Shown here piece by piece: positions 49,681 to 53,980 of a DNA stretch of 64,000 bases; position 1 is the stretch's first letter, and every line of letters starts with the position of its first letter. Both the position numbers and the translations under genes were made by a program. A model generated the notes under the pieces. That model saw only the letters and a program-made list of their open reading frames with translations. It had not been told where the DNA came from and ran no database searches. Source of the stretch: Halobacteriovorax marinus SJ (GTDB lineage: Bacteria > Bdellovibrionota > Bacteriovoracia > Bacteriovoracales > Bacteriovoracaceae); the NCBI RefSeq assembly GCF_000210915.2, contig NC_016620.1, positions 434,001-498,000 of the forward strand. The letters run 5' to 3'.

Positions 49681-49712
49681 GCCAGTGGATAAAAGCACTG
49701 GCTTCTTATTTT
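49681..49712 (+). terminator. Terminator after the barrel protein gene
   Basis: GCCAGTG (49681-49687) pairs perfectly with CACTGGC (49696-49702), followed by TTCTTATTTT. The tail overlaps the stop of the convergent LysR gene. Confidence 0.8.
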
Positions 49713-50605
49713 AATTCAGTCTTAAAGAAATTAATAAATGCTCTTAGTGCTGGAGAAATATGAATCTTATGGGGGTAATAAAGATAGAACCCCGTACTTT
49801 GGGTCTTATATTCTTCTAGGACAACTTTTAGCTTTCCTCTTTCCAGATCGTTTATAACCGAACCTTTTTCAATGTAAATGATTCCACTGTGGGAAAGAGC
49901 TGCTTGTCTAATGTGTTCGGAGTTGTTTAAAATGAGATTGCCATTAACTCTAACAGTGAACTCTTTCTTCTTGTCTTCAAATTCCCATTTGTCATAAACA
50001 CTTGTACCAGAACCAAATCGAAGAAGAATACAATTATGATCTAGTAGTTCTTTAGGGTGTGAGGGGCTTCCGAATTCTTTAATATACTTTGGAGAAGCTA
50101 CTGTTATAAAGTCAATTGGGCCAAATAATTTTAATGCGATTAAGTCCTTTGCTATTATATCATCAACTCTTATCCCTGCATCAAAGCCCTGAGAAAAGAT
50201 ATCAACTGCCTGGTCGTCAGAAAAAATCTCTAGTTGGACTTTAGGATACTTTTTTAAAAATTCTCTCACATAATCTTTAAGATAGTGCTGGTAAAATATA
50301 ACAGGTGCATTAATTCGAAGTAATCCACTTGGTTCATTCCCTAAGGTTCTTACACTACTCTGTGCATCTATAATTTCATCAATAGCAGGTCCAGCTTTAT
50401 TGAGGAAAGTGATTCCTGCTTCAGTTGGATTTACATTTCTTGTTGTTCTAGTTAATAAAATGACACCCATTCTTCTTTCAAGGTTTGAAATGATTCTACT
50501 AATGGCCGGTGTAGAAATATTCAAAATCTCAGCTGCCTTTTTAAAGCTTTTATTTTCAGCAACTAGTTTTAGAGCGACTAATCCATCTAATTGATCTTTG
50601 TTCAC
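49706..50605 (-). CDS. LysR-family transcriptional regulator
   Basis: An N-terminal winged helix (SFKKAAEILNISTPAISRIISNLERRMG) and a C-terminal periplasmic-binding-like effector domain. 299 residues, normal. The start is GTG without a clear Shine-Dalgarno. It is divergent from a hydrolase-cupin-cyclophilin run with a 96-base gap, the classic position for a LysR regulator controlling the neighbouring operon. The effector is unknown. Confidence 0.9.
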   Translation of the reverse strand: MNKDQLDGLVALKLVAENKSFKKAAEILNISTPAISRIISNLERRMGVILLTRTTRNVNPTEAGITFLNKAGPAIDEIIDAQSSVRTLGNEPSGLLRINAPVIFYQHYLKDYVREFLKKYPKVQLEIFSDDQAVDIFSQGFDAGIRVDDIIAKDLIALKLFGPIDFITVASPKYIKEFGSPSHPKELLDHNCILLRFGSGTSVYDKWEFEDKKKEFTVRVNGNLILNNSEHIRQAALSHSGIIYIEKGSVINDLERGKLKVVLEEYKTQSTGFYLYYPHKIHISPALRAFINFFKTELK

Positions 50606-50701
50606 TGTTAACTCTTAGTTAATGATTCATTGTTGATTGTGCCATTTATTGGAATTGTTTTCCAGCTTAAAATGAGGAGGAAGTTAAAAAACGGAGGTTA
50701 T

Positions 50702-51754
50702 ATGAAGAGTTTTACTTTGTTACTTATGCTGGGGAGCCTTTTTATGGCCACTAGTTGCTCATCAAATAATTATAGGGAGAAAGGTACTATGGAAGTAGGT
50801 AAAGAGTGGGATAAGACATTTAAGAAAAGCGATAAAGTTAATCACCAAAAAGTGATGTTTAAAAATAGGTATGGAATAACTTTAGTAGGGGATTTATATA
50901 CCCCTAAAAGAGAAAGTACTGAGCGTTTATCGGCTATTGCAATCAGTGGTCCATACGGAGCAGTCAAGGAGCAGTCTTCGGGGTTGTATGCACAAACTAT
51001 GGCAGAAAAAGGATTTGTGGCTTTAGCGTTTGATCCTTCGTACACAGGGGAAAGTGGTGGAGAGCCAAGAAATGTTTCTTCTCCAGATATTAACTCTGAA
51101 GACTTTAGTGCAGCAGTTGATTTTCTAGGAACTCAAAAAGAAGTAGATAGAGAGAGAATTGGAATCATTGGTATCTGTGGATTTGGTGGAATGGCTCTCA
51201 ATGCAGCTGCTGTAGATAAGAGAGTCAAGGCCGTTGTTACGACCAGTATGTATGACATGTCTAGAGTTATGTCTAAGGGTTATAATGATAGTCAAACAGC
51301 CCAAGAGAGAAATGAAATATTAGAAAAATTAAGCCAGGAGAGATGGAGCGATGTTGATGAAGGTAAGTTTAGACTAAGTCAGCAAGGCTTACCTGAAAAG
51401 ATTACTGGTGATGAGCCTCTTTTTGTTAAGCAATATTTTGACTATTATAAAACACCTCGTGGTTTTCACGAGAGATCGATAAACTCAAATAGCTCATGGA
51501 CATTTACCAATCCATTGTCATTTATGAATATGCCAATTTTGAGTTACATAAAAGAGATTTCACCAAGGCCTATTTTCATAATTGCAGGATCTAAGGCTCA
51601 CTCTAGATACTTTAGTGAGGATGCTTATAAAGAAGCAGCTGAGCCTAAGGAACTTTTAATTATGCCTGAAGTTTACCACACAGACTTATACGATAGAGTA
51701 GATGTTATTCCATTTGATAAGATCGATAACTTCTTTAAAAGAAACTTAAAATAA
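50702..51754 (+). CDS. Alpha/beta-hydrolase lipoprotein of the YcjY/dienelactone-hydrolase-like group
   Basis: A lipobox-like ATSC after the signal MKSFTLLLMLGSLFM predicts an anchored lipoprotein. The nucleophile elbow is GICGFGG, with Cys in place of Ser as in dienelactone hydrolases; the acid/base residues lie near IIAGSKAHSR and VYHTDLYD. This cluster type (LysR, YcjY-like hydrolase, cupin, cyclophilin-like) recurs in bacteria and may process a small aromatic or lactone compound, which is inference. The ATG at 50702 has CGGAGG upstream; the earlier start at 50630 is not supported. Confidence 0.8.
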   Translation: MKSFTLLLMLGSLFMATSCSSNNYREKGTMEVGKEWDKTFKKSDKVNHQKVMFKNRYGITLVGDLYTPKRESTERLSAIAISGPYGAVKEQSSGLYAQTMAEKGFVALAFDPSYTGESGGEPRNVSSPDINSEDFSAAVDFLGTQKEVDRERIGIIGICGFGGMALNAAAVDKRVKAVVTTSMYDMSRVMSKGYNDSQTAQERNEILEKLSQERWSDVDEGKFRLSQQGLPEKITGDEPLFVKQYFDYYKTPRGFHERSINSNSSWTFTNPLSFMNMPILSYIKEISPRPIFIIAGSKAHSRYFSEDAYKEAAEPKELLIMPEVYHTDLYDRVDVIPFDKIDNFFKRNLK

Positions 51755-51768
51755 TCTTAGGAGTGACT

Positions 51769-52266
51769 ATGAAAAAGTATAATAGAATAATTTTAATTCT
51801 AGCTCTGACATTAGCTAGTTGCTCTACAACTAAGTTTAATAAGAGTATGAGCATAGAGAAAATACCCGCTATCGTTCATCTAGATGACAAGTCTCCAACG
51901 TTTTCTGGAAATGTTGAAGTTCAAATGCTATTTTCAGAAAAAAATCATGAGCCGTCGAGGTTAACAGGAGCTGAGGTTAAATTTAATCCAAGAGCAAGGT
52001 CTGCTTGGCACACTCACCCTAGAGGGCAATTATTAGTTGTGACAGAAGGTGAGGGGATTGTTCAAGAGTGGGGAGAACCTGCTAGAAAGATTTCCAAAGG
52101 TAATGTGGTGTGGACACCTCCTGGAGTAAAACATTGGCATGGTGCTTGCGCGGATAAATTTGTTAAGCATTATGCTCTTCAGGAGAAAGACAGTAATGGA
52201 AAGAACGTTATTTGGATGGAGAAGGTTTCTGAAGAAGAATATGAGAAAGCAGCAAAGATGGAATAA
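51769..52266 (+). CDS. Cupin-domain lipoprotein
   Basis: Lipobox LASC (after MKKYNRIILILALT) and one cupin barrel. Motif 1 is SAWHTHPRGQLLVVTEGEG (His-x-His, with Gln in the usual Glu place) and motif 2 is PPGVKHWHGA, giving metal-binding histidines. Similar cupins include Mn-dependent hydroxynitrile lyases and regulators; the substrate is unknown. AGGAG lies before the ATG at 51769. It follows the hydrolase by 14 bases. Confidence 0.8.
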   Translation: MKKYNRIILILALTLASCSTTKFNKSMSIEKIPAIVHLDDKSPTFSGNVEVQMLFSEKNHEPSRLTGAEVKFNPRARSAWHTHPRGQLLVVTEGEGIVQEWGEPARKISKGNVVWTPPGVKHWHGACADKFVKHYALQEKDSNGKNVIWMEKVSEEEYEKAAKME

Positions 52267-52690
52267 TCTTATAAGTTTTTTTATGTTGGGTGGGCTAGTA
52301 ATCTCTAGCCTCTCCATATTTGGAGTAGAGGTTGAAAAGATGAAAATAAAAATACTTCTTGGAGAAGATGAAATCTTAATTTCATTGAATGATAATCCAT
52401 CGTCCCGTAGTCTTTATGAGCAACTGCCACTAAGTGTTAAGGTGGAGGATTATGCTTCTAATGAAAAAATCTTTCATCCTCCTCGTGAGCTTTCTACTTT
52501 AGATGCCCCTGTCGGGTATGAGCCAAAGGTTGGAGATGTCACACTCTATGCTCCGTGGGGAAATGTAGCTATTTTTTATAAAAACTTTTCTTACTCCAAG
52601 GGACTTATTAAGTTGGGTGAAGTAACCTCAGGGGTTGAGTTACTTAGTAAGTTGAATAATCAAGTTGTTAAAGTTAAAAAAGCCCAGTAA
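52241..52690 (+). CDS. Exported cyclophilin-like protein
   Basis: The start is the ATG at 52241 inside the cupin 3' end (26-base overlap), because it supplies a complete signal peptide: MRKQQRW, then the hydrophobic NNLISFFMLGGLVISSLSIFG. The mature domain (ISLNDNPSSRSLYEQLPLSVKVEDYASNEKIFHPP...GDVTLYAPWGNVAIFYK) matches the cyclophilin-like family fold. Catalysis is not established for this group. All three products of the run are thus exported. A later ATG (52342) would give a cytoplasmic form. Confidence 0.75.
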   Translation: MRKQQRWNNLISFFMLGGLVISSLSIFGVEVEKMKIKILLGEDEILISLNDNPSSRSLYEQLPLSVKVEDYASNEKIFHPPRELSTLDAPVGYEPKVGDVTLYAPWGNVAIFYKNFSYSKGLIKLGEVTSGVELLSKLNNQVVKVKKAQ

Positions 52691-52705
52691 TGGGCTTTAC
52701 ACTTT
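52676..52705. terminator. Bidirectional terminator between the cyclophilin-like gene and the SDR gene
   Basis: AAAGCCCA (52679-52686) pairs with TGGGCTTT (52691-52698) around GTAA. The plus tail is ACACTTT; the minus tail is TTAAC after TT. Confidence 0.8.
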
Positions 52706-53447
52706 ATGGAAGGTAGGCTCCTCCACATACAGGAGTATATGTTCCAGTTATATGAGAACTATTCTCATCCACTAAGAAGGCAACGACATTAGCAACGTCT
52801 TTTGGAGTTGCAATTCTATTGGTTGGAGTCATAGATTTTATATAATTCTTAAATTCTTCTGGTGCTTGTTTAGTTGCATCAGTAAGAACAAGACCTGGAG
52901 CAACGATATTAGATGTAATTCCAAGTGGTCCAAGTTCTTGAGCTAAGTACTTAGAAAAGCTATCTAATGCTCCCTTTGCTGTTCCATGCGCAATGAAACT
53001 AGGTGCTGGACTTTCTGATAATGTACTAGAGATAAAAACTAGTCTTCCATATTTGTTGCCTTTCATATTCTCAGATGCATGCTTAGCCGTAATATAAGAA
53101 GCGTGTAATTCATCATTTAATTTTTGAGCAAACTCTTCCCAACTTTGATCTAGAAATGGTTTTTGAGTGAAGCTCATGTTCGCATTGGAAACGAGTATAT
53201 CAACGCCTCCATGATCTTTTTTGATTTTGCTAAACATTGTTGAAACCTGGTCATTTTCTCTTACATCTGCTTGAATAGAGTAAGATTCTCCTCCGGAGTT
53301 GTTAATTTCTTCAACGAGTTCATTTGCTATAGCTGTACTGTTAACATAGTTAATGAAAACCCTGTAGCCTCTCTTTGAAAGTTCCTTGGCTATCGCAGCT
53401 CCAATCCCTCTTGCTCCGCCTGTGATAAGTGCATTTTTCTTTGTCAT
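52704..53447 (-). CDS. Short-chain dehydrogenase/reductase with a His-x3-Lys active site, SoxR-controlled
   Basis: The NADP-binding TGGARGIG (9-16), Asn-Ala (SNAN, 87-90) and catalytic Ser141 are present, but the canonical Tyr-x3-Lys reads His154-x3-Lys158 (AHGTAKGA). 247 residues, close to FabG. It probably reduces a carbonyl or quinone-like compound; the altered Tyr and NNAG motif put it in a divergent subgroup. It is divergent from soxR and its promoter contains a soxbox. AAGGAG lies seven bases before the ATG. Confidence 0.88.
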   Translation of the reverse strand: MTKKNALITGGARGIGAAIAKELSKRGYRVFINYVNSTAIANELVEEINNSGGESYSIQADVRENDQVSTMFSKIKKDHGGVDILVSNANMSFTQKPFLDQSWEEFAQKLNDELHASYITAKHASENMKGNKYGRLVFISSTLSESPAPSFIAHGTAKGALDSFSKYLAQELGPLGITSNIVAPGLVLTDATKQAPEEFKNYIKSMTPTNRIATPKDVANVVAFLVDENSSHITGTYTPVCGGAYLP

Positions 53448-53483
53448 ATTTTCTCCTTATGATGTCAATTTAAGGTACAATGA

Positions 53484-53514
53484 AGTATAAAACCTCAAGT
53501 TAACTTGAGGTCAA
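53484..53514 (-). promoter_or_regulatory. SoxR operator inside the SDR promoter
   Basis: A perfect 18-base palindrome CCTCAAGTTAACTTGAGG (53493-53510) equals the known E. coli SoxR site. On the minus strand -35 TTGACC (53509-53514) and -10 TATACT (53484-53489) are 19 bases apart, the over-long spacing that MerR-family activators correct by distorting DNA. The start would be near 53477. Confidence 0.92.
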
Positions 53515-53521
53515 GGCGATT

Positions 53522-53980
53522 ATGAATAGAATCATTCAAGACAAAGAAATTTTATCAGTAGGGGAACTCTCTGAGAGAAGCGGAGTCGCAATTTCAGCTA
53601 TTCACTTTTATGAGTCTAAGGGGCTCCTGCGATCGACTCGAAATAGTGGAAATCAGAGGCGGTTCAATAGAAGAGAGCTCCGAGTTCTCGGGTATATTAA
53701 GGTAGCGCAGAAAATAGGACTCTCTTTAGAAGAGATTAAGTACGCTTTTAAATCAATTGTTAATAAAGAGAGACCGACCGTAAACGATTGGAAAAAATTA
53801 GGAAAAAGTTGGGATGAAGTTCTAACTAAGAAAATGAAACTGATTGAAAAGATGAAGTCGCAATTAGGTTATTGTATAGGATGCGGATGTCTTTCACTAA
53901 AAGATTGCCCACTAAGAAATGAAGGGGACTTTTTAGCGGCAGAGGGTTCCGGTCCAAGACTTCTGTTGGATGATGATTAG
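53522..53980 (+). CDS. soxR: SoxR, [2Fe-2S] redox-sensing MerR-family regulator
   Basis: An N-terminal MerR winged helix (LSVGELSERSGVAISAIHFYESKGLL), a dimerisation helix and the cluster site Cys118-x2-Cys121-x-Cys123-x5-Cys129 (YCIGCGCLSLKDCPLRN), identical in spacing to E. coli SoxR. Oxidation of the cluster by redox-cycling compounds turns it into an activator. Its own promoter would overlap the soxbox, so it is probably autoregulated. 152 residues. AAGG precedes the ATG. There is no soxS here; the direct target is the adjacent SDR gene. Confidence 0.95.
   Translation: MNRIIQDKEILSVGELSERSGVAISAIHFYESKGLLRSTRNSGNQRRFNRRELRVLGYIKVAQKIGLSLEEIKYAFKSIVNKERPTVNDWKKLGKSWDEVLTKKMKLIEKMKSQLGYCIGCGCLSLKDCPLRNEGDFLAAEGSGPRLLLDDD

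Follow-up and report, generated by a model that had tools for sequence, protein, structure and literature searches.

A predicted SoxR-controlled short-chain dehydrogenase/reductase with histidine at the catalytic tyrosine position in Halobacteriovorax marinus SJ

In E. coli, SoxR acts on soxS, and in Agrobacterium tumefaciens superoxide dismutase is reportedly regulated by SoxR. Reports of SoxR control of sod are also cited in PMC4411124, which describes the divergent soxR-mfsA pair of S. maltophilia, where both activation and autorepression were shown and the target is an MFS efflux pump. In S. coelicolor and P. aeruginosa SoxR directly controls a few genes, redox enzymes among them, and SoxR targets of S. 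coelicolor were induced with actinorhodin (PMC4146615).

The locus considered here lies in a 64,000-nucleotide stretch of the H. marinus SJ genome ("the window" is this whole stretch) and has the same divergent layout as the S. maltophilia pair, with a short-chain dehydrogenase/reductase (SDR) in place of the efflux pump and with a box that agrees with the E. coli consensus at 18 of 18 positions, as opposed to 14 of 18 in S. maltophilia. Direct control of few genes, including a redox enzyme, would be shared with S. coelicolor and P. aeruginosa, but where S. coelicolor SoxR has six targets only one is predicted here, and it is an SDR whose catalytic Tyr is replaced by His. The operator sequence is the same as in E. 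coli and the SoxR proteins align over their whole length, whereas E. coli SoxR works through soxS and in the 3.44-Mb genome of H. marinus there was no second soxbox within 2 mismatches at which such a relay could begin. As reported for Agrobacterium, a SoxR promoter on a superoxide dismutase or superoxide dismutase-like gene was detected in one relative (G013) and in two of four Alteromonas genomes but not in the window's genome. The type of switch and circuit is known; the wiring is new and the target SDR unusual, and a literature search with narrow terms, in which subscription papers were mostly missing, returned among its listed hits no paper on this soxR-SDR module or on this SDR family.

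The locus and its promoter

The features on which the argument depends are given here in window coordinates.

52679..52698, minus strand: intrinsic-terminator-like hairpin directly 3' of the SDR gene (consensus scan only)
52704..53447, minus strand: FabG-like SDR, 247 aa (Pfam PF13561/PF00106, alignments, tree and structure model)
53453..53458, minus strand: Shine-Dalgarno AAGGAG of the SDR gene (read from the sequence)
53484..53489, minus strand: -10 TATACT of the SDR promoter (sequence; 19-base spacing kept in 7/7 SDR genomes)
53493..53510, no strand: predicted SoxR operator (soxbox), 18-base perfect palindrome CCTCAAGTTAACTTGAGG (sequence and genome scan)
53509..53514, minus strand: -35 TTGACC of the SDR promoter (sequence; common to 7/7 SDR genomes)
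53522..53980, plus strand: soxR, 152 aa, with [2Fe-2S] motif CIGCGCLSLKDC (TIGR01950 match and alignment to 2zhg)

On the minus strand the SDR promoter reads TTGACC, a spacer of 19 bases (53508-53490), TATACT, AAGGAG and then ATG at 53447, with the palindrome reaching from the spacer into the -35 element. CCTCAAGTTAACTTGAGG agrees at all 18 positions with the SoxR box that PMC4411124 prints for E. coli, and its placement inside an over-long -35/-10 spacer (TTGACC-19-TATACT) is that of SoxR-activated promoters. The preliminary description of this locus had read an E. coli SoxR site between TTGACC and TATACT, 19 bases apart and directed toward the SDR, and had placed its beginning next to soxR; the coordinates proved exact, and the start of soxR (53522) lies 11 bases beyond the palindrome. 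The SDR promoter was absent from a standard promoter scan restricted to spacers of 16-18 bases, as expected for a MerR-type promoter with a spacer of 19. Because a terminator-like hairpin follows the gene, the SDR is probably transcribed as a single-gene unit.

A search of the window allowing up to 3 mismatches to the soxbox gave 1 match versus 0.03 expected. The genome-wide scan that the preliminary description had proposed as a check was run by pattern over 3.44 Mb (3,437,906 bases, two contigs) and returned one perfect site, none at 1-2 mismatches and two at 3, where the base composition of the genome leads to chance expectations of 0.00004 (0 mismatches), 0.07 (up to 2) and 1.2 (up to 3). 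The full soxbox promoter pattern matched once in the genome, at the SDR. The two sites with 3 mismatches were dropped as additional SoxR targets, both lying within ORFs and 1.2 being expected.

Alternatively, the palindrome could serve as a transcription terminator or be an inverted repeat that arose by chance, and a terminator scan does flag it on the minus strand, with 9 pairs and a T-rich tail. However, no listed minus-strand ORF of at least 80 aa ends at the palindrome, position, sequence and spacing are kept as a promoter in seven genomes, and a perfect site is expected only about 0.00004 times in the genome, so that we regard this explanation as extremely improbable.

The divergent neighbor of the SDR is, judged by its sequence, a true SoxR. 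Its product scores 177 bits with TIGR01950 (SoxR), over the curated cut-off of 116.9, contains the four-cysteine [2Fe-2S] motif CX2CXCX5C as CIGCGCLSLKDC, and aligns from end to end with 2zhg, the structure of E. coli SoxR, with a matching DNA-binding region (FYESKGL, RNSGNQRR). Recent import of the soxR-SDR pair was considered; GC content gives no sign of it, at 37.6% for the SDR and 39.2% for soxR against 36.8 +/- 2.1 for 51 window ORFs.

The stretch beside the SDR (window 49706-52690) contains a LysR regulator, an alpha/beta hydrolase, a cupin that is (R)-mandelonitrile lyase-like (NF049940, over cut-off) and a Cyclophil_like2 gene, and is possibly an electrophile-detoxification neighborhood. 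A similar alpha/beta hydrolase occurs near the SDR in one relative (L047) and Cyclophil_like2 genes in two others (L054, L063).

Conservation of the pair and distribution of the SDR family

The same 368 genomes of the phylum were searched for the SDR with a 17-sequence profile (E 1e-70 or better) and for SoxR with a window/G013 profile (E 1e-30 or better). The SDR family was found in 7 and SoxR of this kind, uncommon in the phylum, in 21, and the 7 genomes with the SDR are exactly the 7 top SoxR scorers among the 21 carriers. In every one of the 7 the SDR and soxR stand head to head, with a promoter between them made of TTGACC, a spacer of exactly 19 bases and a -10 of the form TAnnnT, and when the 7 intergenic regions were aligned the promoter block was the conserved part. 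The SoxRs of these 7 Bacteriovoracaceae pairs form one clade (support 100/99). Mismatches to the E. coli box number 0 in the window, 4 in G013, 3 in G088, 0 in G077, 1 in G082, 2 in G097 and 1 in G093; the degenerate boxes of G088 and G013 weigh against the module. Box, gene pair and the spacing of 19 bases are retained in every one of the 7 genomes with the SDR, which supports at the sequence level the earlier proposal of direct SoxR control of the SDR; its further suggestion that the target is not a SoxS is likewise supported by the genome's single box at the SDR, no SoxR-driven soxS being predicted.

In the draft genome of Bacteriovorax sp. DB6_IX (L054/L084/L110) the pair is short, with an SDR frame of 225 aa and a SoxR of 127 aa without the last cluster cysteine, either from sequencing error or from decay.

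The palindrome could also serve a MerR-family protein other than SoxR as its operator. Soxbox-like palindromes with 1-2 mismatches and TTGACC-19 adjoin non-SoxR MerR-family genes in L127 (G082) and L142 (G060), at about 1501-1518, possibly reflecting a second MerR lineage with almost the same operator as SoxR, and the window's genome contains a second match to TIGR01950, at 61 bits and below the cut-off. Because near-identical boxes adjoin other MerR genes, a box alone is no proof of SoxR. The site in the window, however, matches the E. coli box at every base and lies next to a genuine soxR, and the two occur together in 7/7 SDR genomes, while as a control 18 of 20 relatives without SoxR at the search thresholds had no site within 2 mismatches; the remaining two were L143, with a site inside an ORF, and L142, with its TTGACC-19 promoter beside the other MerR-type gene. 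Adjacency to soxR and co-occurrence therefore favor SoxR as the user of the window's box, and its use by another MerR protein seems very unlikely.

In G013 a similar SoxR-type promoter (TTGACC-19-TAAGAT, L034:1492-1522) stands before an Fe/Mn superoxide dismutase gene (L034:889-1461), a target that makes sense for SoxR; no SoxR-type promoter of this kind on sod was found in the window's genome. In another family of the phylum (L090-L092), soxR with a perfect soxbox lies divergent to a gene for a small protein of membrane type, about 121-127 aa long, which is another possible direct SoxR target.

A scan of named contigs returned 40 loci; the 26 found by two peptide patterns, at 68-78% identity to the SDR, were kept, and the remaining 14, at 26-39% identity, were treated as different SDRs, with six serving as the outgroup. 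In 18 of the 26 the gene immediately upstream of the SDR encodes an N-terminal MarR motif, and Pfam confirmed the MarR identity in 2 of these 18; four loci (L038, L039, L046, L063) have neither MarR nor soxR as a neighbor, and in Bacteriovorax sp. DB6_IX (L054) soxR adjoins the SDR. Control by SoxR does not extend to the whole family, since 18 of the 26 loci stand behind a MarR gene. All four Alteromonas genomes have a SoxR over the cut-off, with soxR elsewhere than the SDR, and a TTGACC-19-TAnnnT soxbox promoter precedes the SDR in three of the four, with 3, 4 and 6 mismatches. In two of the four genomes (L105, L106) soxR faces away from a gene resembling superoxide dismutase, identified by its similarity to the L034 protein that was tested with Pfam, and this gene has its own box; in the other two it is divergent from a different gene.

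Phylogenetic analysis rejected a single clade of Bacteriovoracaceae and Alteromonas SoxRs (p-AU 0.008, in a constraint test run without the three long rows L102, L109 and L111), and a single origin of the soxbox SDRs of the two groups was neither shown nor rejected (p-AU 0.41). The SDR tree, with 31 members, omits L054, apparently the same gene as L084 (G093), and the frameshifted L062; L110 was omitted from the SoxR trees for the same reason as L054, and L108 yielded no SoxR row. Put most simply, a single SDR family has come under the control of MarR or of SoxR depending on the lineage, the MarR part being read from gene order. The family is rare and patchy in distribution. Among 369 genomes sampled in the class of G370, G370 alone carries the SDR, and it was found in 4 of 246 genomes in the family of G370 and in 3 of 150 in that of G372, all already known; a plasmid search with the SDR protein gave no match.

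At soxR in two loci from Oceanospirillaceae, an SDR-like gene of another kind (L108:596-1384, L109:737-1468) follows a soxbox with 0 and 1 mismatch, respectively, and TTGACC, perhaps an independent SoxR-SDR pairing.

The SDR protein

The structure model of the SDR (pLDDT 91.8) has FabG-type reductases as its nearest solved folds, at about 30-34% identity to FabG structures, and the protein scores 185.8 bits with TIGR01830 (3-oxoacyl-ACP reductase FabG), below the cut-off of 297.75. It has in common with FabG and the classical SDRs the Rossmann fold, the cofactor motif TGxxxGxG (as TGGARGIG) and the Asn, Ser and Lys of the tetrad, Asn111, Ser141 and Lys158, which are invariant across a 17-row alignment. 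It differs from them in having His154 for the catalytic Tyr, with HGTAK where classical SDRs have YxxxK, and SNAN for NNAG. This position is His in each of the 31 family members of the tree (HG[ST]AKGAL) and Tyr in all 6 outgroup rows. NADPH is the predicted cofactor under the rule for NADPH preference given in PMC4171110, since the Gly-rich loop carries Arg13 and the second strand is not followed by an acidic residue.

Without its catalytic Tyr the protein is less likely to work as an ordinary SDR, and the replacement by His points either to a carbonyl reductase with a modified relay or to a mainly NADPH-binding protein. Other SDRs with Tyr missing or replaced, namely a Burkholderia enzyme with Leu for Tyr (BcSDR, LxxxK), termed divergent (PMC11614110), an atypical V. 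vulnificus SDR without tetrad residues (PMC7973133) and the Y157H form of mBFP, share the SDR fold and the NADP(H) binding predicted for the window's SDR but belong to other families. The mBFP change is engineered, whereas the same kind of change, Tyr to His, is natural here and fixed in the compared members. According to PMC10866763, mBFP Y157H is redox-free but still binds NADPH, with fluorescence 1.2 times that of the wild type, and acetaldehyde and nitrobenzaldehyde no longer give a response; Tyr157 of mBFP is inferred to be the tyrosine of YxxxK. As cited in PMC7973133, Tyr to His abolished the activity of Drosophila alcohol dehydrogenase, and the same paper reports that E. coli FabG with Tyr151 replaced is still active on its natural substrate.

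The SDR could be a working reductase that detoxifies a redox-active compound sensed by SoxR, such as a quinone or phenazine, or a carbonyl made by such a compound. SoxR of S. coelicolor acts on genes for redox enzymes, one of them an NAD-dependent epimerase/dehydratase and another a quinone oxidoreductase (PMC4146615), the invariance of Asn111, Ser141 and Lys158 suggests a working active site, FabG tolerates replacement of its Tyr151, and oxidoreductase genes occur near the SDR in some relatives, namely an iron-type alcohol dehydrogenase with an AraC regulator in L047 and a zinc alcohol dehydrogenase in L054. Against these stand the His in 31/31 members and the loss of activity that the same substitution brought to Drosophila alcohol dehydrogenase and to mBFP, and we consider a working reductase possible, if somewhat doubtful.

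Alternatively, the SDR may be a non-catalytic NADPH binder, made under the redox stress that SoxR reports, that buffers, protects or reports NADPH. This is consistent with the invariant His, with the retained NADPH fluorescence of mBFP Y157H in the absence of a substrate response, with the existence of atypical SDRs in V. vulnificus and Burkholderia, and with the use of SoxR output in E. coli as a read-out of NADPH-related processes (PMC6612552). A pure binder has no obvious need of invariant Asn111, Ser141 and Lys158, however, and the mBFP parallel depends on the inferred equivalence of Tyr157, which makes a binder without catalysis a tentative and rather unlikely reading. The preliminary description had pointed to a redox-active toxin or metabolite as the substrate; this part is not supported, as Tyr is His in 31/31 members and the sequence does not reveal a substrate, and the neighbors of the SDR family point as much to aldehyde or electrophile chemistry or to plain NADPH binding.

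Proposed circuit

The patterns detected make it quite probable that soxR and the SDR constitute a two-gene module in which SoxR directly controls the SDR without SoxS. The site, its geometry, uniqueness and conservation, the gene identities and the His are shown by sequence, and activation of the SDR and autoregulation of soxR are proposed from known SoxR biology. SoxR would sit on the palindrome in the over-long 19-base SDR promoter, and oxidation of its [2Fe-2S] cluster by redox-cycling compounds or superoxide would distort the spacer and turn the SDR on. The palindrome also lies upstream of soxR, and because the site is 11 bases before its start codon, soxR is probably repressed by its own product. 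There would be no soxS relay, and the SDR would be the only SoxR target predicted in the genome. Once made, the SDR would bind NADPH and would either reduce a carbonyl, such as a quinone or reactive aldehyde, through a modified proton relay or act mainly as an NADPH-binding protein. A broader and more speculative proposal, which we think unlikely, is that the members of the family are not reductases but stress-induced proteins that bind NADPH as a buffer, carrier or sensor, under SoxR in two lineages and MarR in most others, with the SDR as the sole SoxR target here.

The locus would represent a minimal predicted SoxR circuit, one sensor and one target, in a marine predatory bacterium. It would also be a clear-cut example of a single protein family whose members stand under SoxR in certain lineages and next to MarR in others. 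Its interest above the ordinary comes from the unusual SDR and from its occurrence under different redox regulators. Whether the SDR is an enzyme of altered chemistry or an NADPH binder, either would bear on what SoxR really senses outside the enteric bacteria.
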